Shown piece by piece: positions 35,237 through 61,800 of a stretch of DNA of 64,000 nt (the first letter of the stretch is position 1; the number at the start of each line of letters is the position of its first letter). The notes beneath the pieces were generated by a model, which was given only the letters and a program-made list of their open reading frames with translations, ran no database searches and had not been told where the DNA came from. The stretch is from Sabellastarte sp. h YS-2021 (Eukaryota > Annelida > Polychaeta > Sabellida > Sabellidae), in contig OZ024930.1 in NCBI GenBank assembly GCA_964017235.1, positions 153,388,221 through 153,452,220 of the forward strand. Direction: 5' to 3'. A program made the translations under genes and the position numbers.

Positions 35237-35396
35237 TACATTTAATGAATGCTTATGTGTGGTGTTGGAGTAAAATCTGCGGCTCACTTGATGAAATTCT
35301 ATCTCTTACAATGGGAAGTTATGAAAGTAAAATTCTTAACAAATTCTAATATGACTTTTGCTTAATCTGCATCAAAAGACAGACCCAAAGGTGCAA

Positions 35397-39780: not shown

Positions 39781-42428
39781 ATGGGAAAGAAATCAAAGGT
39801 AAAGCTTAATTTATAGATTGTTTTTATGAAAAAATTAATTTTGATTTGTTATGATTTAATTTTCAGTTAATCATTTTGTAAGTCCCACCAAAAAACGTCT
39901 GCTTGTTTACCCTCCATATTTCTGAACTAGTCTGGTATCCAGTTTTTTTTTTTTAATTTAGTGAACCTTTTTCATTCATTAGGATCTGCTGTGTAAGTGG
40001 GAAAATTGTAGTTAAATTAACCAGGATGAAATATTAAAATGTAACACTACAAACTTACAGTGTTTGAATAAAAACATACATACAATAGTGTTTGAAACTG
40101 TAATTTGACAAAGTGCACAAGGTTCAATTAATTAATCAAAGTTGGCTGTGAATCTTGCATTGACAACTGTATGTGTTTTACATAAGTAAATGCAAATGTA
40201 ATATAAATATAGCAACTCAGAACCCACAAACCTTTGAAAACATGTTGATTAAGTGTTGAAAATCGATCAAAGAAATTGTGATTAACTTATGCAATTTATA
40301 TTCCTTTACAATGAATTCATTAAATTTTTTGCCAAGCTCTACAGTTTAACCACATTTTTTTAAACTTTCAGAATCCAAAAGGTACATATAAAAATATGCA
40401 AGAGATGTCCTTGTTAAGGCAGTCCAAGAAATTCAGTCTGGTCATAAACTGAGCAAGGTTTGCAAGAAATATAGCTTGCCAAGTTCGACACTTCGAGGGT
40501 ATAGAATGAAAAATGCCAACTTGGACAGTATGATACCACATAATTAACTGCTGACTCACAAAGAAGAGCATTCAATATGTAATTACATAGGCTGGATGGC
40601 AGAACATAATTTTCCCATTACCAGAATTCTGTTGAAATCAATGGTCTTAGAAATATTGACAAGGAAAGGAATCAAAGTAACACCATCAAAAAAATGGTAC
40701 CAAAGATTTATAAAAAAGAATGGTCTTCTTTCAAAAATGCCTAAGCATGTTAACCGTGGAAGGTTTCGAGCTGCTAATACAGACAACATTGCCTCTTACT
40801 TTGACCTGTTGCAATCTGTTCTTGATAAATTTGACCTAATTGACCAACCCGAACTCATTTTCAATGTTGACGAGACAGGGTTCAGTGAAGAACTGAACAC
40901 CCAAACCAAAGCTATTGTGCCAGTTGGGCAAAGGCCAATTACTAGGCAAATATTCACAAATGACCACTCAACGTCCGTATACACAATATCAGAAACAGGA
41001 CAAGTTTTATCCCCTATGGTTATATTCACAAGGTCTGTTCCAGTTTCTCTGAGAAATATGGAACTTGGTAATTGGATTTTCAGAAGCACCAAAAGTGGCT
41101 TCATAGATACAAAACTATTTCTAGAGTGGTTCCGTGACATTTTTCTGAAGGAAGCCCCTGTCAAGAGACCTTTACTTCTCATTTTAGATGCCCACAGTAC
41201 CCATGTAGGATTTGAGTTTGTTGAGCTTGCAAAGAAAGAAAATGTAGAAGTTTTGTCCGTACCTAGTAAAACAAGCGATAAATTACAACCTCTTGACCAG
41301 ATTTTCAGCCTTTTAAAGGGGCAATTCTCAAATTTGGTACTCTCATTGAAATTAGTTAAAGGTGATATCTTGGTGAATCAAGGCAACTTAGCACAAATAT
41401 TGCAGTTGGCAATTGACCAGGCATGGACAAAGTATACTCTTTTAAGAGAACAGGTATTGTTACTTCTACATAACACATTACTTTACAGTGCATGTTCACA
41501 AATAGACATTCCCACATGTAAACATAGCATACTTATAATTAGGGGTGCGACCGAGCAGTTGACACTCGACGAGGAAGGCGAATTTCATGAAAATTTGACC
41601 CCAATTCTCAGGGTCGAGTGCTCGTGTATATATAACAACCTATAGAACTGGTTATGTTTTTTAGTTAATAAAACATATATAACACACCTTACTTACATTA
41701 AATCACATAATCCATCATTTTAAAAATAATATTATTGATATTACGTGCTGACAATAGCTAATTCAAGCGATTCAAAGCTTTTATCTTTATATTTTTTTTT
41801 CATTTACGGGAGCCGCCATATTGGATGTCGTTTCCTGTTAAGGTGGATACTAAACTTCGCGAGGGCTTGATGTCGAGTCGAGTTTTTATCTGCAAGCATT
41901 CGACCCGAAATATTTGTACTCGTCACACCCCTACTTATAATGTTAATAAAATGTAATGTGTGTCAAACTTCTACTTTTTTGTTGTACTTTGTTGTACTAT
42001 GTATATTGCTCTACTGTTGATAGTGGTAAACTCTTGCAAGGCAGTAGTTTCAAGGTGGGAATACAGTCCAAACTGTCAATGTTTATTAATGTAACCCTGT
42101 ACAGGCAGTATATCAAAATATGGTGTTAAGTAATACTTCAGATACAGTCAAACCATTACATATATCTTTTAAAATAATGTATGTAACTATGACAAGCATC
42201 ATACCATGCAACAGAAATGCCATTACATTGCAACAACCTGCACCTGTCTCAGGAAAATCTGCATTGATGCTAAATGTACAGAAAGATTCAGAAGGCCGTT
42301 GCCCTACATGCAAGCACCTCAAACCTTGCCCTGATTGTTTTCAGGTGTGTTCTATACTTGCAAAATGTAGCCAATTACTTTATAATTTAGAATATAAAAA
42401 GCAATCGTTGCAACAAAGGTGCCACTGA
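39781..42428 (+). pseudogene. Pogo-like (CENP-B/jerky-type) transposase gene, spliced, nearly intact catalytic domain
   Basis: Proposed exons are 39781-39798 (start MGKKSK, donor GTAAAG), 40372-41453 (acceptor TTTAAACTTTCAG, donor CAG/GTATTG) and 42105-42428 (acceptor CTGTACAG). All joins keep phase 0. Exon 2 begins with a Psq-type helix-turn-helix (LVKAVQEIQSGHKLSKVCKK). It continues with a CENP-B-like second DNA-binding part and a DDE domain: NVDETGF (first D), LLILDAHSTH (second D) and SKTSDKLQPLDQIF. Exon 3 has IPCNRNAIT, resembling the family's C-terminal GIxPFNRxAI box, and a cysteine cluster CPTCKHLKPCPDC. Damage is a one-base deletion near 40395 and a TAA at 40545-40547. The open frame from 40596 covers 286 residues of exon 2. 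Introns are inferred. Terminal inverted repeats were not found, so a domesticated gene is also possible. Confidence 0.72.
41540..41933. mobile_element. 394 bp hAT MITE inside the pogo-like gene's second intron
   Basis: The termini are TAGGGGTGCGAC and inverted TAGGGGTGTGAC (11 of 12 match). The 8 bp CTTATAAT flanks both sides exactly (41532-41539 and 41934-41941). An 8 bp duplication with a TAGGG-like terminus is typical of hAT elements. The interior is rich in GTCGAGT-type words and has no coding sequence. Without splicing, the last 34 or so codons of the open frame starting at 40596 would be MITE sequence. Confidence 0.92.
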
Positions 42429-43595
42429 GAATTTTGTTAAAGCATAAGTGCAAAAATTAACTTAAGACTTAATCTGTTAGCTGAAAATATATTAATGTAA
42501 GTTCTAAAGAATATGTATGATGTGTGGCATTGTATTTCACTACCAGATGGATTGACAGGTAGAGATTATTATCTGTCCTGTTAAATTGAAACATGTATTC
42601 TGTATGAGTATGCTGGTAATGTTAACCCTTTAGTTAGGCAAGGCATTGTTTCATGTGACCTACTTGATGTGTGTGTTCCTCCACTGAATGCTAACAATCA
42701 TGTACAGTCCACTACTGGTGCAACACAGAGTACCCGTCATATGTGGAGACAGAGTAGATTGTTGATAGGTGCCCACATAAATAATGAACATAAATAAGAT
42801 TAAAGTAAATACACATATTCACGTTTCCATAGAAAATATGAGGTCAAAGAATTTTGTGGGTTTCACAACAACATTTTACTATAAATAGAAATGCTGCTTG
42901 AAGATCAAATAATTCAAAGTCTCAGACTTGTACGACTCATTTATATTCATGTTAGGCCATTCAATTCAGTGGGGTTTCCAACAATTTTCTATTAATTGAC
43001 TATAAATACTACAAATTTACAAACATGATACATTAATATTCATGTATGCACAGAAAATATACGAGGTCATGGAATTCAGGGTTTTGGGTTTCCTAACAAT
43101 ATTTTATTAAACTAGCTAAATTGCTGTTTGAAGACCAAATACTTCAAATTACAAAAATAATTTATTGGTAGCAAGATGCCGTGGTCAAGAGTTAAATGTA
43201 AATAATATTTTTGCCCATTAAAAATGATTCTGAAATGTTTATTGTTTTGACTTTACATTTGTAAAATACTTTTATGACCTGCGCTTGTGCCGATGCATAT
43301 TTTAATAAAGAGAAATTCATGAAACTACAAATAAAGCAAGAAAAAAAATGAATTTTTAATGTCCAAGTTGTGCAAAGTTATGGTGGGGAGCAGTACTTTG
43401 CTGTAATTACGAGTATGGTGGTTTTCTATTTATTGAGACATTAAGCAAGTAAATGTGACTTTCACGGCATGTTTTACAACTTTTATGCACATTTGGTTAA
43501 AATAAACGAATGACAGTTGGTTAATGTTGAAAGATGTTTTCACTTTGTTGAAAAACAAGAATTCTTGCTCCATTGTAATGCTAATGTATACATAA
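42429..43595. other. AT-rich spacer with no recognised gene, containing one long-range direct repeat
   Basis: Positions 43151-43218 recur almost exactly at 57756-57823. Nothing else was recognised. Confidence 0.5.
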
Positions 43596-44429
43596 TAGTG
43601 GCTTTCTACCAGTAAACACCCGTCTAGCTACCAGTGAACGCCCACCTTATATTTCCTTGTTAGTGGTCAAGGACAAAGGTTTTTACTTATCTACAAAATG
43701 GGCGTTCACTGGTATTTTTGGTTTGCTGTAGAAACGGCGGATAATATAGATGAATTATGAAAATATAAAGCTTTGAAACAAATAAAACAACACACGCCTA
43801 AGTTATTAATTGCATGTAGTGTATTAGACCGAGTTTCTGTCCCGTCGCCAATTGCTATTGATATACTGATGGACACAATGGCGAGGGACAGAGTTCCCAT
43901 GTACCTGTTTTCTGTGTAAATCTCGAAGTTTTGGAAATTATTTCATTTACTTTGAAAAGTCCTTCTGATGTCTAGATAGCTGTATCTCGTATACAATACA
44001 TATGTTGTTGAACTAAACTGCTTTTACAAGCCAGGAATTTCTTTTGTAGATAACTATGTAATGTTGAAGGTTTGTTTACATTTTAAAAATAGGTTGAACT
44101 ATACACATACCAGAAGGATAGGCATTAAATATTTGTGAACGGCACATGTACAGACCTTAAAGAAACCAAATAACACTTTATACTTGTTGTAATATGTGTA
44201 GAAATATGCCGTTCAAAATTTACACAGAAAACAAGTACATGTGAGCTCTGTCCCTCGCCATTGTGTCCATCAGTATATCAATAGCAATTGGCGACGGGAC
44301 AGAAACTCGGTCTAGTAGTGTATATCATTTGAAAATCTGTTGTTAGAAGAATAAAATATAAAGCTGTAAACATAGTTTAAATTTAATATATTAACTTCAA
44401 CATGGGCGTTTACTGGTAGAATGTCACTA
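43596..44429. mobile_element. TA-flanked MITE (about 330 bp when empty) hosting a nested MITE
   Basis: The ends GTGGCTTTCTACCAGTAAAC (43598) and inverted GTGACATTCTACCAGTAAAC (ending 44427) differ by two bases over 20. They are flanked by TA on both sides, suggesting a Tc1/mariner-type element. A second, exact 16 bp inverted pair lies inside (TACCAGTGAACGCCCA at 43629, complement at 43699-43714) and repeats the terminal motif. The element is interrupted by the Mutator-like insertion at 43825-44314. Confidence 0.75.
43825..44314. mobile_element. 490 bp Mutator-like (MULE) MITE with about 98 bp terminal inverted repeats
   Basis: The first 68 bp from TAGACCGAGTTTCTGTCCCG is identical to the reverse complement of the last 68 bp, and similarity continues to about 98 bp with a few mismatches. 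The 9 bp GTAGTGTAT flanks both ends exactly (43816-43824 and 44315-44323). Long TIRs plus a 9 bp duplication are typical of Mutator-like elements. The near identity of the arms suggests a fairly young insertion. No transposase. Confidence 0.9.
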
Positions 44430-44660
44430 GGCCGAAAATACGAGTTAGGCCGAATATACGTACCTTACTACACAACCTTTAAAAGAAACTGTGACAATCA
44501 AAACATAACATACCAGCAATTAGAGTTTTATACCAGGATTAATACACATACAATGTGAAATTTTACTGCTCCCCAGTTTTCTGTGAGCAGTTTGTTTTCT
44601 CACTTGCTACTGTAGAGTAGAGCGATAATACAAACAGGAAGTTATGTCTCTAATAGTAAG

Positions 44661-44825
44661 TTCAGCGCTGACAGGACAGAAAATATTATGTACACAGTGG
44701 GATGCCTATCCCACCACCGCCAAAGATCCTACATTATTTCTGCTTTCAGACTGGTAACCATGTGGTACCTGCTAAAACGAAATTTCTTAAATTCGTACTT
44801 AAAACACTTCTGAAAGGAAATGAGC
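44661..44825. repeat. Outer arm of the left 109 bp array
   Basis: It contains TTCAGCGCTGA (44661-44671) and TGTACACAGTGGGAT (44689-44703). Both recur in reverse order and orientation at 57560-57570 and 57517-57531, beyond the right-hand array. The similarity in between is weaker, but CATTATTTC and CCTATCCCAC words are shared. This suggests the two arrays and their outer flanks form one inverted duplication. Confidence 0.65.
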
Positions 44826-46033
44826 TGCCTATCCCACTGTGCACACACAAGGGCGAGGAAGGGCTGACCTATCCCACTGTGCACACTTTTGAGGCTGAGC
44901 ATCCCACTGTGGCCATTTTACAAATGAGAAGAGATGCCTATCCCACTGGGCACACACAAGGGCGAGGAAGGGCTGACCTATCCCACTGTGCACACTTTTG
45001 AGGCTGAGCATCCCACTGTGGCCATTTTACAAATGAGAAGAGATGCCTATCCCACTGGGCACACACAAGGGCGAGGAAGGGCTGACCTATCCCACTGTGC
45101 ACACTTTTCAGGCTGAGCATCCCACTGTGGCCATTTTACAAATGAGAAGAGATGCCTATCCCACTGTGCACACACAAGGGCGAGGAAGGGCTGACCTATC
45201 CCACTGTGCACACTTTTGAGGCTGAGCATCCCACTGTGGCCATTTTACAAATGAGAAGAGATGCCTATCCCACTGTGCACACACAAGGGCGAGGAAGGGC
45301 TGACCTATCCCACTGTGCACACTTTTGAGGCTGAGCATCCCACTGTGGCCATTTTACAAATGAGAAGAGATGCCTATCCCACTGTGCACACACAAGGGCG
45401 AGGAAGGGCTGACCTATCCCACTGTGCACACTTTTCAGGCTGAGCATCCCACTGTGGCCATTTTACAAATGAGAAGAGATGCCTATCCCACTGGGCACAC
45501 ACAAGGGCGAGGAAGGGCTGACCTATCCCACTGTGCACACTTTTCAGGCTGAGCATCCCACTGTGGCCATTTTACAAATGAGAAGAGATGCCTATCCCAC
45601 TGGGCACACACAAGGGCGAGGAAGGGCTGACCTATCCCACTGTGCACACTTTTGAGGCTGAGCATCCCACTGTGGCCATTTTACAAATGAGAAGAGATGC
45701 CTATCCCACTGGGCACACACAAGGGCGAGGAAGGGCTGACCTATCCCACTGTGCACACTTTTGAGGCTGAGCATCCCACTGTGGCCATTTTACAAATGAG
45801 AAGAGATGCCTATCCCACTGTGCACACACAAGGGCGAGGAAGGGCTGACCTATCCCACTGTGCACACTTTTCAGGCTGAGCATCCCACTGTGGCCATTTT
45901 ACAAATGAGAAGAGATGCCTATCCCACTGTGCACACACAAGGGCGAGGAAGGGCTGACCTATCCCACTGTGCACACTTTTCAGGCTGAGCATCCCACTGT
46001 GGCCATTTTACAAATGCCTATCCCACTGTGGCC
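44826..46033 (+). repeat. 109 bp tandem array, left copy, 11 units
   Basis: The unit is exactly 109 bp and contains three copies of ATCCCACTGTG (offsets 5, 45 and 76). Between them are ACAAGGGCGAGGAAGGGCTG, TTTTGAGGCTGAGC and CCATTTTACAAATGAGAAGA. Units differ at only a few sites: GTGCACAC versus GGGCACAC in the first motif, and TTTTGAGGC versus TTTTCAGGC. Because 109 is one more than a multiple of three, every unit is open for about 60 codons on both strands by frame cycling; this is not evidence of coding. A final partial unit ends at about 46033. Confidence 0.95.
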
Positions 46034-46189
46034 ACATTAAAGCGAGGAAGATGTGCAAATGGTTCTCAAGCCATGAATTCTTACCTGTTTTATAGTTTTT
46101 GAAGCCCTAGAACTAAGAAAATGATGTTGCTTACAAAAGCAAAGCTTCCCCAAAGGTTAGATAGGTTTTATAGTTTAAACATAGATAAA

Positions 46190-46570
46190 AAGCTTGTATA
46201 TGGGGGTCACGGGGTAAATCTGACCATCTATATAGGCTCTTACATATGGTTTCCCAATACCTCTTAATACATTCTAAATGAGATATTAGGCAAAAAGACA
46301 AATTGTACTGTTTTACGACCCCAGTTTGACCCATAAGAGGGGGGTCGGGGGTAAATCTGATGAACTATATACACTCTCTACCTATGGTTTCCCAATACCT
46401 GTTGTAACATTCTAAAGCTGTAAAAGAAATGACAAAGGAGATATAAGGCAAAGTGTCAAAATCTGCTATTTTATGACTCCAGTTTGAACCCTACAGGGGG
46501 GTCGGGGGAAATTTAACTTGCTTTCTAGACTGTCCACATATGGTTTCCTGTTACTCCCAATATATTTTGT
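46190..46570 (+). repeat. Tandem repeat, about 145 bp, 2.5 units, GGGGGTC-marked
   Basis: GGGGTAAATCTGA recurs near 46211 and 46346, with a diverged third at 46500. It is followed by TATGGTTTCCCAATACC and, later, GAGATATAAGGCAAA. It resembles the GACC/GAGATATAAGG arrays elsewhere in the window. No gene. Confidence 0.7.
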
Positions 46571-46977
46571 TGCTCTAAATGCACTACTTAAAATAATAGG
46601 GGGCTTCACATGAATTTTAAGTTTTCTGGTTGGTACCTGTGAGAAAATCACTCATAAATATGTCAATTTTCAGCGGATCACTGCCAAAAGGTAATCAGCT
46701 CGAATTTTGATAGTATGAACATGTGTATGAAATTACAAGGCTCGGCATTGAGTAGATTTTGCTTAGCAATGGTGACAGGCGGGTGTACCCCCAAAATATT
46801 TTTCGATCATGTGACCTTGATAAAGATCAAAGGTGAAATTTAAGCATGTGGAAAATTTTTTCCATGCTTAAGGTACATAACTGCCAAATATGGTTGAAAA
46901 GCTTTCAATAATGAGTGAAATATTCAAGGGAAACCATAATGCAGCGGTGGTGGAGAGGAAACTGAAGTGAAAACAAA
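46571..46977. other. Spacer with no recognised gene
   Basis: It contains one AGATCAAAGGTGAAATTTAA fragment related to the AGGTCA arrays. Otherwise nothing was recognised. Confidence 0.45.
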
Positions 46978-47869
46978 TAACCCATAAGTGCTGTCAGGGT
47001 ATTGTTTTCACCCATGGTATCTGGCTAGGTGTCTGGCTAGATGTTTGGGTATTCAGGTGGGTGGGCAGGCGGGCAGGCCAGTGGGCTTGAGGAAAAGTTT
47101 GTCTGGGCTGTATCTCAGAAACTGTAAGGTGTAGGAAGTTGATACTTGGTAGGGACATTGTTTAGGGGTTGTAGGTGTGTAATGTCATGGTTTGACCTTG
47201 ATTTGACCTATGATGTTGCCATAGTGACCTTGACCTATAAATTCTTGTCTGGGTTATATCTCAGAAACTGTAAGGTGTAGGAAGTTGATACTTGGTTGGG
47301 ACATTGGTTAGGGATTGTAGGTGTTCAACATGATAGTGTGACCTAGATTCACATTTGAGCTTGCTGTAGTGACCTTGAACATTAAAATCTTATCCAAACT
47401 ATACCTCAGAATCTATAAGGTGTAAAAGGTTGATATTTGAGGTTTGGGTATGCAGAGTATGGCCTTAATTTGACCTTTGACCTTCTAGGCAGTGAACTTG
47501 AACTTAAAAATCTTGTTAGTGCCATATCTCTGAAACTGTAAGAAGAGAAAGTTGTAGAATGGTGTAGAAAGTTGATTCTTGGATGGGTCATTGGTTGGGG
47601 ATACAATTATACTAAGTCATGGTGTGATCTTTAACCTTGGGTCTGCCAAAGTTTGTTCACCTTCCATAATTGAGCCATATTTCTCTTATGACAAAGATAT
47701 ATGGATTGCTGTAACTGATTATTATTTGTACTTCTTAATTGTGCCATTTCTACTGGTAAGTACATTTCAATTTATAAATTTTACAGCTTCTTATTTTTCT
47801 CTCTGAAACACTATTTTGCTCTGCAAACATTATTTGGACCTTTACATGATGCACTGTTTCCACTGGAAC

Positions 47870-48430
47870 CGACAGGCCGGTAACTATGCATTTTGGAGAG
47901 TTGGGGCCATTGTTTACATAGTCGGTTAGGGTCGGTTACAAGTTACCGGTCTGTCAGGGAGAGTCGGTGAAATATCAAACGTGTTTGATATTTCTATGAC
48001 CATTGCCGACCCTTGTATCCAACCCTAATTTCAGCCCCCTAGCAACAGGCCTGTCGGTTAACTTAACGGCCTGTCGGTTACACTTCCCAGCTTGTCGTTT
48101 AATCAAACAGGCCTGTCTGTAACAAGTATCCGGCTTGTCCCAAATATGAACTTCCAGACTGTACATGATGACTCACCGACTGTGCGGGAAGTGTTACAGT
48201 ACAGTTGGTAACTTTTGCCGGCCTGTCTGTAAGTGTTCCCGACAGGCCTGAAAAGTTTACAGGCTGGTCGGTAACTTTAACAGACTGGGTCCTAGAGTCG
48301 GGAAAATTTCTAACTGACAGGCCTTAAACTGAAACAGACAAGCCATAAACAATAACCGACAGGCCTGTAACACTAACAGGCAAGCCGGCAATATTTTTGC
48401 TTCTTATGGCCTGTCGGCTTCAAAGTCTGG
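47870..48430. promoter_or_regulatory. Harbinger left subterminal motif cluster
   Basis: At least twelve copies of GGCCTGTCGG, GACAGGCC and related words occur on both strands in about 550 bp. The same words (CTTGTCGG, CCTGTCGG, GGTCGGTT) recur at 52800-53065. Subterminal motif clusters in Harbinger elements can bind the Myb-like protein. The function here is inferred from position and symmetry. Confidence 0.55.
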
Positions 48431-48431
48431 G

Positions 48432-48440
48432 TATAAAAAG
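48432..48440 (+). promoter_or_regulatory. TATA box for the Harbinger Myb-like gene
   Basis: TATAAAAAG lies about 215-230 bp upstream of the first ATGs of the accessory gene, in an otherwise mixed-composition context. Confidence 0.55.
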
Positions 48441-48645
48441 GCGAGTCAGTAGACAATCTGCATATATTTGATATGACTTTGATTTGTCGACTGACAACTT
48501 GGTGTGCAGCTTTTCTTCAGGTTTTTATTTTGGGGAAATTAGCTTAAGTACTGAGCTAGGCTGGACTGGTTGGGAGTAAAATCTCTTCTGTGAGGTTTCA
48601 CTTTTATTTTAAGATTTTGTTTTTTAAAACAAGCTGTACACTTGA

Positions 48646-50210
48646 ATGATTCATCAGCATATGCCAAGGGGCAGAAGGAGAAAGATTGAAGTACCAACTG
48701 GAGACACTCAACCACAGTTTGAGTTAGGAGATACAGCTGAGGATATAGAGGGAAGGAGGAGGGAGAGAGAGGTGAGGGATCAGAGAGAGAGGATTGAACA
48801 GGCGGAGAGGGACAGAGAGAGGAAGGAGAGAGAGAGGAGGTAAGAGAGCCAAGAAAGAGGAGAGAAGAGAGTGCGAACTGATATGGATACTGATGTAGAA
48901 TCAACTCAATCCACACAGAAGAAGGGCCAGATGAAGTCCATTTTCCTGAGTGATTCAGACAAAGAAGCCATCGTGGAGTTTGTTAAACAGCACGAGGAAC
49001 TGTGTGACAAGACCAACGACAGTTTCAAAGACAAGCAGAAGAAGGAAGGACTTTGGGAGCACCTAGCAGCTACCAGAAACTTGTCAAGACTGTGAAAAAG
49101 TGGTTCAATACTCAATGTACCAGATATGGCAAGCTCACTCAGATGAAGTCAGGACAAGCAGCTGAGAAGAGCACAGAATGACAGACCTGGCTGAAGGACA
49201 GTTTCAGTTTTCTACAAGGTCACATCAGAAGGAAGGGAGTTTCCAAGTCTTCTGCATTCAAGTCACCCCAGAGGCCGTCTGCAGCCGCAGCTTCAGTTCG
49301 AGATACATCCAGGGACACAGAATCCGAGAAGGAAATCAGCATTACATCAGATGTTACTCATCGGCCTTCGAGTACCAGTCCCAAGCGATGACAGCGTCCA
49401 GTTGCGACTACCGCCACATCTGCAAATCCAGTCTTAGATGGGTTCTAGCAGATGAGGTTGATGATTTTCACATTTTTGGGTGCACATCAGGACCCCACTC
49501 CAAGTCCTCGACAGTCGTTCTGCAACTATCTCCACTCTGAGATTGAACATCTTGAAGAAAGGGACTTTTTAACCTTCAGGAATGACACAGTGAAGCTTCT
49601 CAGTAAAATACAGTACAAGGCCAAAGAACGCAAGAGACATTTCACCACAAGTCAAGAGGTCACCACATATCAACATCCAGAAGCACCACAGTCCACAGCA
49701 GGACGGTAATATGTACTCACCATCCCGGAAACTCAACCAGTCTCCATTCCAGTTGTGCAGCCTCAACAGACTACCACAAGACAGCCTGTTACAGTGATTG
49801 TGAAAGTACAGCAAACATCGGGGCCTTCATCATTGTCAGTACAGCCTACTTCTTATGTTGTGAATGACCAACAGCCTGGGACTTCCAGACAGATGATTTT
49901 CAACCCACCTTCAGTTGCACCTTCACAACAGGAGGAGAGTCAGACAACACTTCTGGATTATCCAGTCTCTTCACAGCTATTCCCAGTGTGCTTCAGTATC
50001 AACAGATGGACACACCACAGCCATTTTCACCCTCTCAACTTCAACCAGCACCGTCACACGTGCCATCTTCCACTCATCATGAACATTCAAGACCTCCCAG
50101 CCAGTCCAGCCAGCAGAGTCAAAGTCAGCCCAAATCAACGGATTAGCCCGCACAAGTCGCACCAAACCCGGCCCCTCTTAGGGCCACCCGAATCATCCAA
50201 AAACAATTAA
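48646..50210 (+). pseudogene. Harbinger Myb/SANT-like accessory protein, broken
   Basis: It begins with MPRGRRRKIEVP and an Arg/Glu-rich coiled-coil-like segment. The DNA-binding part follows: FLSDSDKEAIVEFVKQHEEL, then KKEGLWEHLAATRNL and, after a frameshift near 49085, KTVKKWFNTQCTRYGKLTQM. Later frames give a Ser/Thr/Pro-rich linker, SFCNYLHSEIEHLEERDF and a Gln/Pro-rich tail. In-frame TGA stops near 49178 and 49389 look like CGA-to-TGA decay, and a TAG lies near 49448. In autonomous Harbingers this protein helps import the transposase and bind the ends (family knowledge). This copy cannot make a full product. Confidence 0.75.
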
Positions 50211-50444
50211 CAACCTACAAGTTTGTGCCCAAAAACATGAAAGGCATACCGTCCAACACTTACACCTCCCCACAGTACAAAAAAAATTGTGTGAATGAAT
50301 GTGTGAATATTAAACACATATAAATAAACTTCCACCACAAAATGAAAACAAAAAAAAATTCCCCTTAAAAATAATCCTCTAAGAAATCAAAGTAAAACCA
50401 CCACCCAAACAAAATAAAATTTAAAACAAACTCCCCCCACCCCC

Positions 50445-50965
50445 AAAAAATAAAGATGTGGACTCAAACCCACAACCCCCCAAAAATAAAGTTGTAGACT
50501 CAAACCCACGTCCCCCGAAAACCAAGATCCAGATTCAAACCCACGTCCCTCATAAACCAAGATCCAGATTCAAACCCACATCCCTGTCTCCCAAAACCCC
50601 ACTTTAAATAAAAAGCCACATCCACACTGACACACCAACAAACATGAGGCCTAACAAAATTGATAAAAATGTGACTGGCAATGGATTGATAAACTAAAAA
50701 AAAGAAATTGGATGTGGACTTAAACCCACAACCCCCAAAAAATAAAGTTGAAGACTCAAACCCACGTCCCCCAAAAACCAAGATCCAGATTCAAACCCAC
50801 GTCCCTCATAAACCAAGATCCAGATTCAAACCCACATCCCTGTCTCCCAAAACCCCACTTTAAATAAAAAGCCACATCCACACTGACACACCAACAAACA
50901 TGAGGCCTAACAAAATTGATAAAAATGTGACTGGCAATGGATTGATAAACTAAAAAAAAAGAAAT
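50445..50965. repeat. 256 bp tandem duplication with CAAACCCACRTCC sub-repeats
   Basis: A 256 bp unit is present twice (for example CACCAACAAACATGAGG at 50633 and 50889). Each unit contains several copies of ATTCAAACCCACRTCCCT. It lies in the intergenic middle of the Harbinger. Reverse complements of the sub-repeat loosely resemble a tRNA B box, but no tRNA structure is present. Confidence 0.8.
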
Positions 50966-51377
50966 TATTGGGACTGCAAAGCTTGTATAATTTTCTTTTT
51001 GCAAATTTCCTAGCACTTTTTAAATTCTTGTGAATTATGCAGGAAATATTTCCAGATATTTATTTGGAAACTTTTTTTTAATACCACTTTGTAAATTATT
51101 TTTTCAGAGATTTAAGCCAGGTCATGGGATGGCAACTTTGTTAAGTGAGGACCTGGGTTTGAATCTGTAAGTGATATAGTTTACTTTTTTCAACTGAGTG
51201 TGGGATGGATTGGTATTTGTGATGGGGAATATTTTTGGTGAAATTGAATTTGAATTAAATTATTGGAAACTTGGGGTTGTTTTTGAAGCAACACTTTGCT
51301 AAATAAAAGTTCTTGGATTATTTGGATAGTCCTGAAAAGGACTGATGTATAACAGCATTTTCTCCTCCTCAGTCTTC

Positions 51378-52676
51378 TTAAACTCTCTCCTCCTTCCCAG
51401 CCAGTGCCCCCACGTGATTGAAGTAGTCTTTCAGTAGGTCTCGTTGATGTTTGGCCTCCCTCGATGGTTTTCTGAAGTTCTCTTGATGTCCCTGTTCCCC
51501 CTGGTCCCCCTGTGGTGGTTGTATGACATCAGCTGAAGTGGGTGGTCTGTCTGCTGCCCCCTGATGGCTTCTCAGCATGTTATGTAGTACCACACATGTT
51601 AACACAATGCCTCTCACAGCTTTTGGCCTCTGTTCCATGGTGGTCAACAGCACCTGAATCTCTTGACAAGTATACCAAATGAGTTCTCAACCACCCTTCT
51701 CCCCCTGGATATCCTGTAGTTGGCTATTCTCTCTTCTCTGGTCAGTTGGTGTCTACTGTAAGGCTTGACCATCCAAGGCATCAGGGCAAAGGCGTCGTCC
51801 CACAGCAGGAAGTAGTGTAGATTTGGCCCCCGAGGTCCAAGTGGTTCAGGTGGTGGTAGTCCCAAGGTTCCATTTTCAATTCTTTTTTTCAGTTTGCTGC
51901 GGTTGAAAATCTGTGCATCAGATGATGACCCACAGGAACTTGTAATCTGCATCGACTAAAGCCAAAAGTACCAGGGAGAAGTAGCCCTTGTAGTTTAAAT
52001 ATTCACTGCCTGACTTCTTGGACTTCTTGATAGCAAAGTGTTTTCCATCTAATGCACCAACTGCATGGGGGCATTCCATCTGTTTCTAAATCTTTGTTCA
52101 ATTTTCTTCCAGTCTTCAGGATCGGTGGGGCACATCAGATATTCTTGTTGAAATTCTTTCAAAATGGCTTTTGCAGATCTGGGGGATAAACTTGCAGATG
52201 GTCATTCTTCCAACCCTCCAGTGGTATTGCAGTGAGGTGTAGCTTTCCTCTGTGGATAAGTCTCTCAAAGTAACTGCCAGTTTCAAGCCAACTTCCAGTG
52301 GCTTCCTGAAGTTGGTGATTGACTTCCTGAGGTGGGGGGGTAATTCTTTCTTCAATCAAATAAAAAAATGCTGGCTCCATCCTGGTGAAATTTCTGTAGC
52401 CTGGTATGTCAGTAGTGATTAACTCATCCAAGAGTGTTCTGTAGCAACCTCTCTCCTCTCTCTGCAGTATCCAGGGCAGGATCCATGGATTCTGTGGCTT
52501 CCTTCTCCTTCTTGGTGCTGGGGGTGGGGGTGATGGTGATGCTGGCTGGGCAGGTGCTGGGTTCTGCTGTGTTCTGTGTCTTGAAAATATCAGGTACAAT
52601 AAAAAATTAAACTCAATAAAAACAAAAACAACCCTCAAGTGATCTATCAGTTCCTCTTGATGTGTTCCTGTCATCT
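51378..52676 (-). pseudogene. Harbinger transposase (DDE_Tnp_4 / HARBI1-like), broken
   Basis: The start is MTGTHQEEL near 52674, about 45 bp from a TATA box. The N-terminal part includes RRRRKPQNPWILPWILQREE and DIPGYRNFTRMEPAFF, typical of HARBI1-type proteins. Catalytic motifs are visible in shifted frames: [10 protein letters not shown] (first D, about 52050), [10 protein letters not shown] (second D, about 51950), WDDAFALMPWMVKPYSR and RRVVENSFGILVKRFR (E, about 51690). The tail has VLTCVVLHNMLR and AKHQRDLLKDYFNHVG. At least three one-base indels (near 52130, 52068 and 51925) and a further frame change near 51650 break it. The AT-rich stretch at 52560-52640 may be a small intron. Confidence 0.88.
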
Positions 52677-52715
52677 TTAAAGTGTGAAGTGAATGGCATA
52701 TGACAGGGGAGGGGA

Positions 52716-52726
52716 GTTTATATAGT
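52716..52726 (-). promoter_or_regulatory. TATA box for the Harbinger transposase gene
   Basis: The minus-strand CTATATAAAC lies about 45 bp upstream of the transposase ATG. With the TATA box at 48432 it shows two convergent promoters, each just inside one terminus. Confidence 0.5.
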
Positions 52727-53191
52727 GTGATATGGATCCCAGTTCTGGATCCCGACCCACAAAAACAATCAGTCCTGTTGGGAAGGGTTGGGAACATGCT
52801 CCCGGCTTGTCTGTCATTACGGCTTGTCTGTTTGTGATCTGACTTGTCTGTTAGGGGTTTAGGGCTTGTTGTAGAAGTTCTACGACTGGCCGTGCAAAAA
52901 AATTCTCAACCCTACGGCTTGTCGGGATTGCCATTACAACCTGTCTGTAACTTTACCATCCTGTCGGGGATTTCATAACCGACTCATCATTTTCGCGCCA
53001 TTTTTTCTACGACCCTCCGACTTTTGCAACCGACTCTAGAGTCGTAGGGTCGGTTCCAGTGGAAACAGTGCATAAATGACACCATTTGCTGTGAAAGTCT
53101 CCTGGTATTTTTACTGTTTCATTTCTTCTATATTTCATGGTGTCAAAAACTGTTTCCCCAGGCTTTGGGGTTCGGGGATCCCTGATGCTAT

Positions 53192-54130
53192 TTTTAGTAT
53201 GATGACCCTACTTGACCTTGAAGCAGGGTCAAAGGTCATTATTTCCTCTAAGTTGCTTTTACATTTAGAAGCCCTGGAACCAATAATAAGGGAGATATAA
53301 GAGCCTCTTAGTGTGATGACCAAATTGACCTTGAAGCAGTGGTAAAAGGCCAAATTCAGCACTTTTTAAAGATTTGCAGGCCATGTCATCCCAGACATTA
53401 GTTTCAAGCCAAAGGAGCAATAATAAGGGAAATATGAAGCTGTTTTTGTATGATAACCACACTTGATTTTGAAGCAGGGGACAAAGCTCTAATTCAACAC
53501 CTTCAAAAGATTTGCAGGCCATGATTTCTTATAAGTTGCTTCAGATTTAGTAGCCCTAGAACCAATATTAAGGGAGATATAACAGCCTTTTAGTATGTTG
53601 ACCTAAACTGACCTTCAATCAGGGATCAAAAGGCCAAACTGGGCATTTACTAAAGATTTGCAGGCCATGACTTGCAACAGGTTAGTTTCACATTTTCAAG
53701 CCACAGAGGCAATAATATGGGAAATATAAAGCCTTTTATTTTAAGATAACACCACATTACCTTGAGGTGACAAAGGTCAAATTTGACACTTGCAAAAGAT
53801 TTGCAGGCCATGGTTTCCCATAAGTTGTTTCATATTTGGAAGCTCTAAAACCAATAATAAGGGAAATATGACAGCCTTTCGAACTGAAATCAAAGGCCAA
53901 ATTTGGCACTTGCTAAAGATTTCCAAGCCCATTTCCAATAGGTTGTTTCAAGCCACAAGAGCAGTAACAAGAGAGATATAAGGCCATTTCAGTATGATGA
54001 CCCCACTTGACCTAGAAGCAGGGGTCAAAGGTAAAGGATTGGGCTATGATTTCCTATAAGTTGATTTCTCATTCCAAACCCCTAGGACCAATGGTAAAGA
54101 AAATATTACGCCTTTTTGATGATATTCGCA
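53192..54130 (+). repeat. Tandem repeat, about 145 bp, six degenerate units
   Basis: The unit contains GACCTTGAAGCAGGG, TCAAAGGTCAAATT, AAGATTTGCAGGCCATG and CAATAATAAGGGAGATAT. Units recur near 53211, 53331, 53461, 53610, 53755 and 54005 with considerable drift. It is related to the arrays at 24550, 32790 and 38244. Confidence 0.8.
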
Positions 54131-54673
54131 AATCTGATGAACAGTCAGCCATGACGACCATTTCATTTTTTTTAAATGATGACAACATTTTTGACAATCT
54201 GTAAATTTGGTTAAAATACTTTCCTAAATGAATGAGATATAAAGATTTGTTGAAAATCCATGCATGTGTTTAGGCTGTGAAATACCTAAAACCTTATGAT
54301 TAAAAAAATTGTAAAGGTTTTTGCCACATACCTGCCACTGCTGCCACTGCAAATGCCAAACAGATGGCACAGGGGATGACTATAACCCCACTCTTTCGGG
54401 GCTAGTGTTAGAGTGCTTATAACTTGCCTATTATGCCTAGAGGTGTTGGATGTTGAGCAAACCTATAGGAAATTGTTTGCTTAGAATCGGCTGATGTTTG
54501 ATGTCACATTTGACCTTTGGCCTCTTATTGAAGGTCAAATGAGGGTAGCCAACATTAAAAGTGTTAATATCTTGCTTATTATTGATCTGAGAACTTTGGT
54601 ATATTAAATTAATCTATTGCAAAGTACTAGTATTCAAATCATTTGACCTTTGAACCTGCTTTTAAGAAAGAAA
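54131..54673. other. Spacer with fragments of AGGTCA-type repeat and no gene
   Basis: It contains ACATTTGACCTTTGGCC and a few more TTTGACC words. No coding sequence was recognised. Confidence 0.5.
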
Positions 54674-55536
54674 ATAGCATCAGAGATGCCCATAGCCACA
54701 ACCTGGGGAAATAGTTTTCAATACCATGAGATATAGAAGTAGAGAAACAGTATAACGATTGGGCACTTTCAGAGCAGTGTCAGTAATATAAAGGTCCTAA
54801 TAATGTTTAAGTAGAGAAAATAACATCTAACAGAAAGAAAATGCATGTAAAGATAGAATATTAATACAAGACAATTCAATAGCAAGATGACAACATGAAT
54901 CAGTAAACTAAAAATTATGAAGCTGTAAAATTTATTTATTGGAGAATAGCTGTCAATGCATAATTATGTAAAAGTGCATATAATAATCACTTTCAGAAAT
55001 CCATATATCTTTGTCATAAGAGAAATATGTCTCAAATATGGGAGGTCAACACACTTTGGCAGGTCCAAGGTTAAAGATCACACAATGACTTTGCATACCT
55101 ACTCCCCAACCAATGACCCATCCAAGAATCATCTTTCTACACATTATGGAATCCAAGAAATAGCCCAGACAAATTTTATAAAGCTCATGGTCACTGTGAA
55201 AAAGTCAAAGGTCAAATCAAGACAACTCCATGAGTTTGCACACCTACAACCACTAAGCAACAACCCTACCAAATATCAACTTCTTACACTTAAGAGATAT
55301 TGCCAGGACAAAATTTTTATGGTCATCGTCACTACGACAAGACCAAAAGTTAAATCAAGGTCACAGCATCACGTTGCACAAGATTTTATAGGTCAAGGTC
55401 ACTACAAAAAGGTCAAACTTTTTCCCACCACCAAGCCAAACCTCTGACCACCTACCCAATCCCCCACCTACCCGCCCGAATGCTCACCCCCCATCTGGAC
55501 ACCATGTGTAAAAACAATACCCGACAGTACTTAAGG
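54674..55536 (+). mobile_element. Family II element copy F, complete but diverged
   Basis: It starts ATAGCATCAGAGATGCCC. The arm runs to about 55050, followed by about three diverged monomers (AAGTCAAAGGTCAAATC at 55203, AAGGTCACTAC at 55397). The 3' tract is CACCATGTGTAAAAACAATA ending near ACTTAAGG, where the right-hand 109 bp array begins at once. It is in inverted orientation relative to copy E, with both 3' ends facing the 109 bp arrays. Confidence 0.75.
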
Positions 55537-57433
55537 ATAGGTCAGCCCTTCCTCGCCCTTGTGTGTGCACAGTGGGATAGGCATCTCTTCTTACTTGTAA
55601 AATGGCCACAGTGGGATGCTCAGCCTGAAAAGTGTGCACAGTGGGATAGGTCAGCCCTTCCTCGCCCTTGTGTGTGCACAGTGGGATAGGCAACTCTTGT
55701 TACTTGTAAAATGGCCACAGTGGGATGCTCAGCCTCAAAAGTGTGCACAGTGGGATAGGTCAGCCCTTCCTCGCCCTTGTGTGTGCACAGTGGGATAGGC
55801 AACTCTTGTTACTTGTAAAATGGCCACAGTGGGATGCTCAGCCTGAAAAGTGTGCACAGTGGGATAGGTCAGCCCTTCCTCGCCCTTGTGTGTGCACAGT
55901 GGGATAGGCAACTCTTGTTACTTGTAAAATGGCCACAGTGGGATGCTCAGCCTGGAAAGTGTGCACAGTGGGATAGGTCAGCCCTTCCTCGCCCTTGTGT
56001 GTGCACAGTGGGATAGGCATCTCTTCTTACTTGTAAAATGGCCACAGTGGGATGCTCAGCCTCAAAAGTGTGCACAGTGGGATAGGTCAGCCCTTCCTCG
56101 CCCTTGTGTGTGCACAGTGGGATAGGCAACTCTTCTTACTTGTAAAATGGCCACAGTGGGATGCTCAGCCTGAAAAGTGTGCACAGTGGGATAGGTCAGC
56201 CCTTCCTCGCCCTTGTGTGTGCACAGTGGGATAGGCATCTCTTCTTACTTGTAAAATGGCCACAGTGGGATGCTCAGCCTGAAAAGTGTGCACAGTGGGA
56301 TAGGTCAGCCCTTCCTCGCCCTTGTGTGTGCACAGTGGGATAGGCATCTCTTCTTACTTGTAAAATGGCCACAGTGGGATGCTCAGCCTGAAAAGTGTGC
56401 ACAGTGGGATAGGTCAGCCCTTCCTCGCCCTTGTGTGTGCACAGTGGGATAGGCAACTCTTGTTACTTGTAAAATGGCCACAGTGGGATGCTCAGCCTGA
56501 AAAGTGTGCACAGTGGGATAGGTCAGCCCTTCCTCGCCCTTGTGTGTGCACAGTGGGATAGGCAACTCTTCTTACTTGTAAAATGGCCACAGTGGGATGC
56601 TCAGCCTCAAAAGTGTGCACAGTGGGATAGGTCAGCCCTTCCTCGCCCTTGTGTGTCCACAGTGGGATAGGCAACTCTTGTTACTTGTAAAATGGCCACA
56701 GTGGGATGCTCAGCCTCAAAAGTGTGCACAGTGGGATAGGTCAGCCCTTCCTCGCCCTTGTGTGTGCACAGTGGGATAGGCAACTCTTGTTACTTGTAAA
56801 ATGGCCACAGTGGGATGCTCAGCCTCAAAAGTGTGCACAGTGGGATAGGTCAGCCCTTCCTCGCCCTTGTGTGTGCACAGTGGGATAGGCAACTCTTGTT
56901 ACTTGTAAAATGGCCACAGTGGGATGCTCAGCCTCAAAAGTGTGCACAGTGGGATAGGTCAGCCCTTCCTCGCCCTTGTGTGTGCACAGTGGGATAGGCA
57001 ACTCTTCTTACTTGTAAAATGGCCACAGTGGGATGCTCAGCCTCAAAAGTGTGCACAGTGGGATAGGTCAGCCCTTCCTCGCCCTTGTGTGTGCACAGTG
57101 GGATAGGCAACTCTTCTTACTTGTAAAATGGCCACAGTGGGATGCTCAGCCTCAAAAGTGTGCACAGTGGGATAGGTCAGCCCTTCCTCGCCCTTGTGTG
57201 TGCACAGTGGGATAGGCAACTCTTCTTACTTGTAAAATGGCCACAGTGGGATGCTCAGCCTCAAAAGTGTGCACAGTGGGATAGGTCAGCCCTTCCTCGC
57301 CCTTGTATGTGCACAGTGGGATAGGCATCTCTTGTTACTTGTAAAATGGCCACAGTGGGATGCTCAGCCTCAAAAGTGTGCACAGTGGGATAGGTCAGCC
57401 CTTCCTCGCCCTTGTGTGTCCACAGTGGGATAG
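55537..57433 (-). repeat. 109 bp tandem array, right copy, 17 units, inverted
   Basis: It is the same 109 bp unit as at 44826-46033 but in reverse orientation. It differs diagnostically at the ACTTGTAAAATGG / CTCTTSTTACTTG segment (the left array has CATTTGTAAAATGG). Sub-variants (ATCTCTTCTTAC versus AACTCTTGTTAC, CAGCCTGAAAAG versus CAGCCTCAAAAG) are shared by blocks of neighbouring units. This is the pattern expected of unequal exchange within the array. Confidence 0.95.
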
Positions 57434-57610
57434 GCCGAATTTTTGCTTTGAAATAATGCATGGTCTTTCTTTGGTTAAAGCAGCTTCCCACCACAGCCGG
57501 CCATAGCCGGCTGCCTATCCCACTGTGTACATGCACCATCCCACTATGTCATCCTCCCCTCAGCGCTGAACCTACCTCTCAGTTATGTTGACTGTCAAAC
57601 ATAGATAGAA
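57434..57610. repeat. Outer arm of the right 109 bp array with a perfect hairpin
   Basis: CAGCCGGCCATAGCCGGCTG (57494-57513) is a perfect 8 bp stem with a CATA loop. Then come ATCCCACTGTGTACA (57517-57531) and TCAGCGCTGAA (57560-57570), the inverted counterparts of words at 44689-44703 and 44661-44671. Confidence 0.65.
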
Positions 57611-57755: not shown

Positions 57756-57975
57756 ACAAAAATAATTTATTGGTAGCAAGATGCCGTGGTCAAGAGTTAA
57801 ATGTAAATAATATTTTCGCCCATGACACACTTAATGTATATTTAGCATTATACGTGAAAGTTTATACAACAACAAAATTCAGCTTTCCCAAATCTGCCAT
57901 TCCGGGCCGACTCTACCTTTACATTTACAGCTCATATATGACAGAAGTCAATCAATCAATCAATCAGTGGTCCTG
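57756..57975. repeat. 68 bp long-range direct repeat plus a CAAT microsatellite tail
   Basis: Positions 57756-57823 match 43151-43218 at 67 of 68 positions, in the same orientation. The sequence continues to a TCAATCAATCAATCAATCAG tail near 57950, which is typical of a retroposon or SINE tail. The left-hand copy lacks the tail. Confidence 0.7.
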
Positions 57976-58859: not shown

Positions 58860-61800
58860 ACAACACAGCATGTGGGCAACAAGCATTAATAAAAACATTT
58901 TTCCTTCCACTGGACCACAAAAGTCAGCATGAAATCATCGCCAAGGCTGGTACGGCCAGGCCCAAGTCTGTGTTTTACTGAATGGGTCAGGTAGAATGTG
59001 TCCGCATAGATCACAACTTGCTACTGTTTGTTCGATTTCAGCATCTATTGTTGGCACCAAGAATAAACCTTAGCCCTAGCCTTCATTTTTACTGTGCCTT
59101 CATGAAATTAGTGTATCTCATTCAAAATAGGACGTCTCGATTTTGATGGGATTACTACCTTTACCCTTTTCAGAAGACATCCCTGTTCTACTGAAAGTTC
59201 ATCTTTACACTGAAAGCAAGGTAACACCTCTGGGCTTTTTTTCATTTTAAGGTGCCCAACCTATTCCAATGTCTCTTAAGACTTTTGTTAAAAACTGGGT
59301 CCTTGTGGGTTTCCAGACTTATTTGTTTTTTCGATATTGGTCCCTGGAATCCTGAATGCAGCTGCTGCTGGGATTGCCCTATTGGGGTTAAGGATAAAAC
59401 TCAAGGGTGGATCACCTATTTCTAGCAGAAATTCTATCCATACAAGTAGACATGAAATTTCTGAACAGCAAATACGATCCCTATAGCCCCTTTTTCAATC
59501 TGGGAATAATTTTGTTCAGTTGGTCTTAATGTTCTAGAGGCAAAAGAAATTTGTTTCTCTTCCTCATTATGTAAAATATGGGAAATAACTGCTCCTAAGC
59601 CAGTTGGGCTTGCATTACTTTCAACAACTATTGGTAATTTAGGGTCATAGTGTACTAAAACCGAAGCTGAGCAAAGGACCTTTTTCACTTTGTCAAATGC
59701 TTTATTCTGTTTATCTCCCCACTGACATTTTACTTTATCTTTGAGTAAATCATTAAGCACACTAGTAGTTGCTGCAAAATTTGATATAAACCTCCGGTAA
59801 TAGTTTATTAATCCTAACCAAGATTTCAATTGTTCTTTATTTAAAGGGGCTAGAGCTGATATCATGGCATTGATTTTGTCATTACTTGGGCGAATGCCAT
59901 CCTCGTCAAGTCTGATGGCAAAATATTCAACACTGTCTGCAAAGAATGAGCCTTTCTGCTCATTTAACTGAATGTTGTACTAAGATAGCCTTGCTAACAC
60001 AGCTTGTAAATTGGACAAATAATCCTCATCAGATTCCCCTGTTATGATTATATCATTGATGATGCACTAACCCTGGAGAATCTTATCCACGGTTCCCTAA
60101 TATTTGCTTTGGGCAGATGAAATACCACATGGCATCAGGTTGTATCTATACAGGCCTACATGTATGTTAATGCAGACCAAATTTCATCTGTCTTGTCCAA
60201 ACTCCATTTGTGGATAGGCCTGTCTCAAATCAGGTTTTATGAATGTTTTACCCCCAATTCAAAATGCAAAATAGTTCTACTGTGGGAAAAGGATAATTAG
60301 ATACCTTCAACCATGGGTTGATAATAACCTTGAAATCATCACAGATGTGGATTGAACCAATGAGTTTTGAAACAGGGCTATTGGGGCTGCCCCATTACTG
60401 TATTTGACCTTTTTCATAACACCTAAGTTCTCCAACAGAGTTATTTCAGCCTCTACCTTTTGCTTAATGACAAATGTCATATGTCTGGATTTAAAAAACT
60501 TGGACTGTGCATCATCTTTCATCTCAAGGTCTACTACTACCAATCTTAGTTTTCCTAAGGTTCCTCAAAGAGATGTTTCTGTTCATCTTTAACTTTCTGC
60601 ACCTTGACTTGTACAGTACTCTGGTTAATATCGAGGCTCTTAATTTCACCCCAAATGAGTTTTAGCATTTTCAACCAGTTCCTACCCAAAAGACTTGGGC
60701 CCTTGCCTTTTAAAATGACCCAGAATAGCTTCTTTTCCTGCCTTTATAACAAGCCAGGACCCCAATCTCTCCAAAGACCTTAACATTTTCATCTCTGTAT
60801 GCCTTTAACAGTTGAAGGTTTTCCTTCAATGTGAGAGAAATGTTTGTCATATTCAATAGATAACAAAATGCTCACCCCCAGCACCTGTGTCAATTTGTAT
60901 AATTACCTTCCAGTTTTCCACCATAATCAGGATTTTGAATGGACTGACTTCATCGCTGCTTGATTTTATATGTAATAGTGGATAGCACAGATGATATATG
61001 GGTATCTTCTGTGTCAGAAATTTGCTGCTCAGCTGAAACTGCACGCATTTTTTTCACCAATTTCCCTGTAATCTTTCTTGGTTGCCTTACATTGGCCTTT
61101 TAAATGGCCCTTCTTTCCAGAGTTTTAGCATTCTGGTTCTTTAAAACGGAAATTATATGGGAAATGCCCAATCTTACTGCAACACCAGCACATTCCTTTC
61201 TTTGGAAAATCCTTTCCTTTTGAAGCTTTAATTGTTGGTGGCACTGAATTTCTTCACCTCCTAGCTGCTGAGACATTGGTTACAGTGTGGCAGCCTGTTT
61301 ACTTGTAAGCTCTATTGATGTAGTCATGTCTACTGCACTTAGTGTTGAGTGTTAAGTTGTCCTTTTCCAAAAACTGTTGCTGAATATTGGTGTTCACAAG
61401 ATCAAAAACTAAGCTATCTCATAACATTTCACCTAATGATTATCTGAAATCGCAATTTTTTTCTTCAGTACTGCCACATAATCTGCTATGGATTCAGATT
61501 CCTTTTGATCTTTCCTATAGAACTTAAATCTCTCCACTATGCTCAGTGGCTTTGGATTCATATGTTTTTTTGTGTGTTAATTCTAGTAAGTCCTAGCTTG
61601 TGAGATTTGTGTGTGGGTTGTTTTGGTTGTAACAAACTTTTCATTAACTGCAAACTTTTTTACTGTACAGTCGATAAAATGGATTGCTTAACACATATCT
61701 GAATCATCTCCTGTGATCCCAGTTGCAGTAAAGTATGCATCCAGCCTTTCTATAAATTCCTGCCAGTTATCCCAATCAGCAAATTCTGGCAACTTACCTA

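Follow-up and report, generated by a model that had tools for sequence, protein, structure and literature searches.

Mirror-image 109-bp arrays in a Sabellastarte genome are the ends of a large mobile element, probably of Foldback type

The window considered here is a stretch of 64,000 nucleotides from the sabellid annelid Sabellastarte sp. h YS-2021 (assembly GCA_964017235.1, contig OZ024930.1, positions 153,388,221 to 153,452,220 of the forward strand). It contains two arrays of one 109-bp repeat in opposite orientation. These mirror-image arrays terminate a single large mobile element, copies of which are found at dozens of genome sites. The structure in the window is most probably one copy of a large Foldback-type DNA transposon that is likely non-autonomous (probability about 0.92). 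This copy occupies positions 44648-57580 (12,933 bp) and is flanked by an 8-bp target-site duplication (TSD).

Foldback elements are recognized by long inverted ends made of tandem repeats in variable number, by a TSD of ~8-10 bp, and by a variable middle, with most copies lacking a transposase. Such ends were found in the 20 copies that were read, a shared junction word of 7-9 bp is present in 14 of 17 copies (8 bp in the window), and the middle is variable and mostly without a transposase in a coding scan that was not exhaustive. The family has imperfect 21-bp terminal inverted repeats (TIRs), inverted arrays of varying length, a variable middle, and short derivatives. By these tested features the element belongs to the Foldback class, which denotes a shape and not a lineage.

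Termini and genome-wide recurrence

The TSD of the window copy, AGTTATGT, lies at 44640-44647 on the left and at 57581-57588 on the right. Inside it are the left TIR, CTCTAATAGTAAGTTCAGCGCTGA (44648-44671, plus strand), a pattern that is found genome-wide, and the right TIR, which reads GAGAGGTAGGTTCAGCGCTGA on the minus strand (57560-57580) and is identical to the common left end at 16 of 21 positions. Most other copies start with CAATAGTAAG. In a comparison of 20 copies, the family termini are CAATAGTAAGTTCAGCGCTGA on the left and GAGAGGTAGGTTCAGCGCTGA on the right (reverse strand), with the same 16 of 21 positions alike. The left terminus of the window copy has CTCT where the others have C, before AATAG. 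Compared with the limits given by the sequence-only reading, 44661-57570, the true ends lie 13 bp farther out on the left and 10 bp on the right. Its suggestion that the arrays could be the terminal part of a giant element came close, as they terminate a transposon of 12.9 kb that is bounded by an 8-bp TSD.

Most copies have an 8-bp direct repeat immediately outside both termini. The longest word common to both junctions was determined in the 17 copies whose two termini could be read by pattern, with mispaired ends as a control. The word is 7-9 bp in 14 copies and 5-6 bp in the other three (L013, L017, and L019). Only 3 of 272 mispaired controls reach 7 bp and none of the 272 reaches 8 bp. Three copies stand outside this count, namely L022+23, in which the left end is replaced, and L028+29 and L039+40, in which the right end is shortened; in the latter two, ATCTAGAT and ATACTGTA are still visible by eye.

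Each array is separated from its TIR by a lead. The left lead (44672-44821, plus strand) has one array motif in reversed direction (44693-44703) and a hairpin, GTGGGAT-GCCT-ATCCCAC (44697-44714). The right lead (57436-57559, minus strand) has two reversed motifs (57517 and 57538) and a hairpin at 57494-57513. The motif, ATCCCACTGTG, is opposite in direction to that of the array in both leads, and one of the two right copies has a mismatch. The palindrome TCAGCGCTGA follows the reversed motif in each lead. The outer flanks also share GTTCAGCGCTGA (12 bp) and ATGTACACAGTGGGAT (16 bp) in mirror order, as the sequence-only reading had described. The terminal hairpins fold only slightly better than shuffled sequences (z of -1.9 and -1.7) and carry no weight in the argument.

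With at most one mismatch allowed, TCAGCGCTGA occurs at two places in the window, both exact and both at the array flanks. The expected number is 0.74, and 16 of 100 shuffles reach two. Since this count is unremarkable by itself, the weight is placed on recurrence in the genome. The same palindrome was also considered as a 10-bp TSD and dropped; copies at other loci have an 8-bp TSD outside it.

The assembly from which the window comes (1.786 Gb in 647 contigs) was searched with both leads. The left lead gave 41 matches (40 of 61 candidates scored) and the right lead 40 (40 of 59 candidates scored), and both numbers are lower bounds. An inverted right end is present within 40 kb of 33 of the 41 listed left ends, at distances of 0.49-31.2 kb, where ~0.02 such pairs are expected by chance. 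A genome search for recurring paired inverted arrays was called for by the sequence-only reading, which took array flanks without an inverted partner as the result that would speak against it; the pairing is mostly upheld, with 33 left ends paired and 8 unpaired. Of the 33 pairs, 23 were read completely or almost completely, and the 31.2-kb pair (C1:179429460-179460664) is among the 10 outside those read.

Two pairs of copies are nearly identical. L020 and L021 are 99.7% identical over 4.8 kb, and L024+25 and L030+31 are 99.5% identical over 11.4 kb; in both cases the two copies lie at different sites and have different TSDs, so the whole structure has transposed recently. The left arrays of L024+25 and L030+31 contain 28 and 63 units, a difference that represents fast array growth. 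At the other end of the size range are derivatives of 0.5-1.1 kb, e.g., L012, L013, L014, and L049 (0.76-1.1 kb), which are composed of leads and short arrays without a middle.

Two further arrangements of left leads were seen. At C1:148121182 (plus) and C1:148131937 (minus), two left leads face each other ~10.9 kb apart, possibly as left ends on both sides of one element. At C2:79060263-79060640, two left leads stand back to back ~54 bp apart, one of which has its right-end partner at a distance of 15.4 kb.

Array units and orientation of the body

The left array (44822-46016, plus strand) is composed of 11 units of 109 bp with three ATCCCACTGTG motifs per unit, and in 5 of the 11 units one motif copy has a single change. 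The right array (55535-57435, minus strand) has 17 full units and one truncated unit at its inner edge. Apart from the truncated unit, this is what had been described from the sequence, two opposite arrays of 11 and 17 units 9.5 kb apart. In 20 typed copies, the left array has 2-70 forward units and the right array 1-81 reverse units.

In the window copy, with truncated units included, mean unit identity is 95.5% between the arrays and 97.7 and 98.2% within them. The arrays are fixed for different variants at two unit positions, in line with the earlier claim of array-diagnostic variants; a third position is polymorphic in both. In a sample of 671 units from 38 arrays, the motif diverges by 1.5% and the rest of the unit by 7.6%. 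Units for this sample were selected with an anchor that lies outside the motif, the anchor positions were excluded, and units with fewer than 80 of 109 matches were dropped. Random triples of windows are as low as the motif in 113 of 5000 draws. A search with the exact 19-mer found nothing in viral contigs and a single match among genome contigs, in a Bacteroides metagenome-assembled genome; 1-2 matches are expected by chance in ~257 Gb.

The body between the arrays occurs in both orientations. Relative to the leads, it has the same direction as in the window in 10 of the 17 long copies and is reversed in 7 (L017, L020, L021, L026, L032, L034, and L036). The reversed copies have a junction word of at least 8 bp in six cases and of 6 bp in L017; because their junctions match, the flanks have not been exchanged. 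A tree of a 741-bp body block (17 rows, 13 of them different) requires five changes of orientation, at least three of which are forced by well-supported branches; four forks of this tree are open and the bootstrap is not fully settled. Orientation is not clustered on the tree, as 193 of 500 shuffles are as low.

The array units also differ by type. In three close relatives that are not reversed (the window copy, L028, and L039), A-type units make up the left array and B-type units the right, although an array may contain a single odd or untyped unit. Three reversed copies (L026, L032, and L034) have a B-type right array with a single A unit innermost, and B units predominate in their left arrays (0-3 A units). 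The single A unit adjoins the end of the body that, in the window, is next to the A-type array. The pattern resembles the footprint expected of a crossover between the two arrays. Outside the close group of window relatives, the unit types are mixed.

According to older work in Drosophila, Foldback loops can turn; the matches listed by a literature search on this subject contain nothing to the point. Since each array is an inverted copy of the other, recombination between the two would turn the middle. It could also even out the units and leave short derivatives without a middle. Such recombination may happen while the element stays in place or when the gap left by excision is repaired. The TIR and the lead motif may be recognized by a cut-and-paste transposase acting in trans, in which case the arrays would be multiplied copies of its recognition site. 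A bolder proposal is that the arrays are a built-in recombination switch, flipping the cargo, homogenizing the ends, and shedding short derivatives as a routine side effect of transposition or gap repair, with orientation drawn anew almost every cycle and the array kept since each unit adds three transposase sites. This proposal is speculative, and we consider it improbable.

The same transposon could also show reversed middles for other reasons, namely assembly error or a few separately formed masters in place of frequent recombination between arrays. Long, near-identical inverted arrays are hard to assemble, and the tree block does not differ between L032 and L034, which may derive from one reversed master. 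Against this, some reversed copies have short arrays (L020 and L021, ~0.3-0.5 kb per array), and the tree demands at least three changes of orientation. This explanation is rather unlikely.

Composition of the body and the nested Harbinger

The body of the window copy begins with a degenerate end of the left array (to ~46050) and an inner segment common to other copies (46017-46981, plus strand). It is followed by segment E of family II, a Helentron/HINE-like family. The 3' part of E (46982-47849, minus strand) belongs to the element body, and its 5' part (53073-53195, minus strand) lies on the far side of a nested PIF/Harbinger element. A middle block with a 143/289-bp tandem repeat (53196-54661), also common to other copies, leads to family II segment F (54662-55534, plus strand), which is truncated within its 3' hairpin where the array begins. 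E on the minus strand and F on the plus strand had been placed just inside the arrays. This fits F, which abuts the right array with a truncated hairpin; the 3' end of E is ~0.93-0.97 kb away from the left array.

Four body blocks of the window were sought in other copies. Three short copies have none of them, and 17 long copies were counted. The block of the inner 0.9-kb piece with 3' E is found in all 17, the E block adjoining the Harbinger in 15, the block just beyond the Harbinger in 17 (partial in four), and the middle-to-F block in 13. As these blocks recur in other copies, they form the body of the element rather than something that the window copy acquired later. The F block has the opposite orientation in L016, L018, and L019 and is missing in L020, L021, L024, and L030.

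Originally the whole was believed to be a partly decayed inverted duplication of ~12.9 kb, with the arrays and family II copies as its two arms. The mirror order of arrays, leads, and E/F agrees with this, as it does with a transposon, since mirror-image ends are expected of any TIR transposon. In an inverted segmental duplication, both arms descend from one copy, with equal divergence and the same junctions, which is not what is seen here. In their longer pieces, the best local matches between E and F have 63-73% identity. With other family II copies in the window, the best local matches rise to 85-86% for E and, for F, to 77% (repeat part) and 83% (5' part). The junctions of E and F with their surroundings differ from each other, paired ends with TSDs recur at many loci, and the F block lies the other way round in L016, L018, and L019. 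An inverted duplication is thus very improbable, and the earlier claim does not hold.

Other family II copies in the window lie at 2254-3110, 35396-36711, and 37391-38098 and have 146-bp arrays and HINE-like 3' ends. Helentrons and HINEs are marked by a 5' subterminal repeat complementary to the 3' end and a 3' hairpin, and further by insertion in TT and a Rep/Helicase partner. Helentron/HINE-like termini are seen in other family II copies of the window, where an alignment read by eye shows TACCCCACAGCC close to the 5' end, GGCTGTGGGGTA at the 3' end, and the hairpin ACAGCCCTTAAGGGCTGT; the 5' ends were aligned for two copies, at ~34.1 and ~36.9 kb. The 3' ends of E and F depart from this pattern or are cut.

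That two independent array-bearing elements, e.g., HINEs with palindromic subterminal inverted repeats (subTIRs), inserted nearby in opposite directions can be all but dismissed: in the excerpts consulted, some Helentron subTIRs are palindromic like TCAGCGCTGA (PMC4067079) and oyster HINEs carry tandem arrays (PMC7492417), yet the two leads are unlike, they are paired as left and right at 33 loci and have TSDs in common, and Helitrons make no TSD (PMC4067079). In place of the insertion in TT without a TSD that marks a Helentron or HINE, the outer element has an 8-bp TSD.

The nested PIF/Harbinger (47850-53072) has the TIR TGCACTGTTTCCACTGGAACC and is flanked by TGA on the left and TAA on the right. 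PIF/Harbinger elements make a 3-bp TSD, TWA. The exact Harbinger terminal word is present at both junctions in seven copies (the window, L026, L028, L032, L034, L036, and L039); in L024 and L030 the left word has one change, and L020 and L021 have kept the right end alone. The site is empty in 6 of the 17 long copies (L015, L016, L017, L018, L019, and L022), where it reads TTTACACAAATG, and is filled or partial in the remaining 11. As one and the same site is filled in 11 copies and empty in 6, the Harbinger entered an ancestor once and was then carried along. The idea that the structure was later enlarged by the Harbinger is correct in that the empty site exists in six other copies; the insertion took place in the ancestor and not at this locus.

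Members of PIF/Harbinger encode a DDE_Tnp_4 transposase and a Myb-like protein. These were found in sister copies: DDE_Tnp_4 and MADF domains are present in L020 and L024 (Pfam, E-values of 2.5e-21 and 1.4e-6). The window open reading frame (ORF) at 52162-52905 has no Pfam match.

Coding content, known relatives, and surroundings

No transposase besides that of the nested Harbinger was recognized in a partial scan of the ORF lists of the fetched copies, with Pfam run on selected ORFs. The ORFs scanned were nine of the window (four inside the element), five of sister copies plus one of L041, 10 of L015/L022, and seven of L036/L037. Inside the element, the Harbinger domains are above or just below the cut-off, and the other matches are weak and below the curated cut-off, as is that of the L041 frame. 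Six ends with odd interiors and the L018 flanks (5 kb each, mostly judged from ORF lists) were read for an autonomous partner, and no transposase was recognized in them. The one long open frame region scanned there, in L042, is a reverse transcriptase (RVT_1, E-value of 2.2e-20), and an overlapping longer frame has no match.

Foldback transposons are mobilized by Mutator- or P-type transposases. The genome has eight matches to P-type RNase H, and 150 of 633 candidates for Mutator-like elements (MULEs) were scored; on contigs holding a TIR place, the nearest of the matches compared lies 50 kb from such a place. The 8-bp TSD alone does not decide the superfamily.

Several observations weigh against a Foldback-type transposon whose middle is turned by recombination. 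The element's own transposase was not found in the partial scan of ORFs from selected copies, and among the P-like and MULE matches listed (150 of 633 MULE candidates scored), none is within 50 kb of a TIR place. Eight of 41 left ends and 7 of 40 right ends have no partner. The array of L050, which is outside the typed set, is in one orientation only. The junction words of L013, L017, and L019 are just 5-6 bp, and the left end of L022 is replaced. L036 does not follow a simple crossover footprint, having only A units on the left and a mixture on the right, and the footprints of L026, L032, and L034 may come from one event.

In structure the element matches Foldback elements, Tetris and Tm1 in particular; the comparisons draw on excerpts of the cited papers. 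Tetris, a Foldback element of Drosophila virilis, is likewise non-autonomous, with TIRs composed of an outer flanking domain, a tandem array, and an inner domain, a variable non-coding middle, expanding arrays, and TSDs of 8-10 bp (PMC4079207). The likeness is structural and by description; the Tetris units are ~220 bp and those here are 109 bp with three motifs. Unlike Tetris as excerpted, the present element has paired ends up to 31 kb apart, carries a nested Harbinger, and has its middle in both orientations.

Tm1, a Mutator/Foldback element of Meloidogyne, shares composite tandem-repeat TIRs, outer motifs that differ between the two ends, and short members resembling miniature inverted-repeat transposable elements (MITEs), and its TSDs are 8-10 bp (PMC3169594). 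Its repeat units are 13-15 bp, compared with 109 bp here, and a Phantom-type transposase is described for it, whereas none was found here in the partial scan. Galileo, a Foldback-like element of the P superfamily in Drosophila, also has long TIRs, internal repeats that differ in number between the ends, and sequence exchange between TIRs (PMC3573991). In D. mojavensis it has at most three copies of a ~210-bp repeat region (PMC3573991). Repeats in Foldback-like ends have been proposed as extra transposase binding sites for Galileo (PMC3573991, PMC4079207). Unlike Galileo, none of the eight P-like matches here is near a TIR place.

Cg_HINE of the oyster has satellite-like arrays inside mobile elements, as do family II segments E and F; the outer element differs from it in having two inverted arrays, TIRs, and an 8-bp TSD (PMC7492417). 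A literature search for a similar case returned Foldback and HINE papers, none with this element among the matches listed. Three sequence words gave no literature match, a weak result because papers rarely print such words. Relative to the Foldback passages compared, the size, the carried Harbinger, and the body in both orientations are additional features.

Satellite-like arrays can spread and grow inside a mobile element, and L024+25/L030+31 is a case in point. Most copies of the family have readable insertion sites, and together they form a natural set for dating and counting recombination events between inverted arrays. Annotators should be aware that mirror flanks around inverted arrays do not necessarily mean a duplication.

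The flanks of L018 (L047 and L048; C1:130203190-130208189 and 130218190-130223189) belong to a related array element that hosts L018. This host has inverted arrays with a ACAGTGGGCC motif and a TCAGCGCTGA end and is perhaps a second family of the same build. Around the window copy, a 68-bp direct repeat (98.5% identical) lies on both sides of the element, at 43151-43218 and 57756-57823. The left flank contains an imperfect palindrome at 43803-44335, which is 67% identical to its own reverse complement and is perhaps a MITE. Farther out are an ORF for a DDE_1/HTH_Tnp_Tc5 (pogo/Tigger-like) transposase at 40548-41642 (plus strand) and a piece of a retroelement RNase H at 59437-59979 (minus strand).

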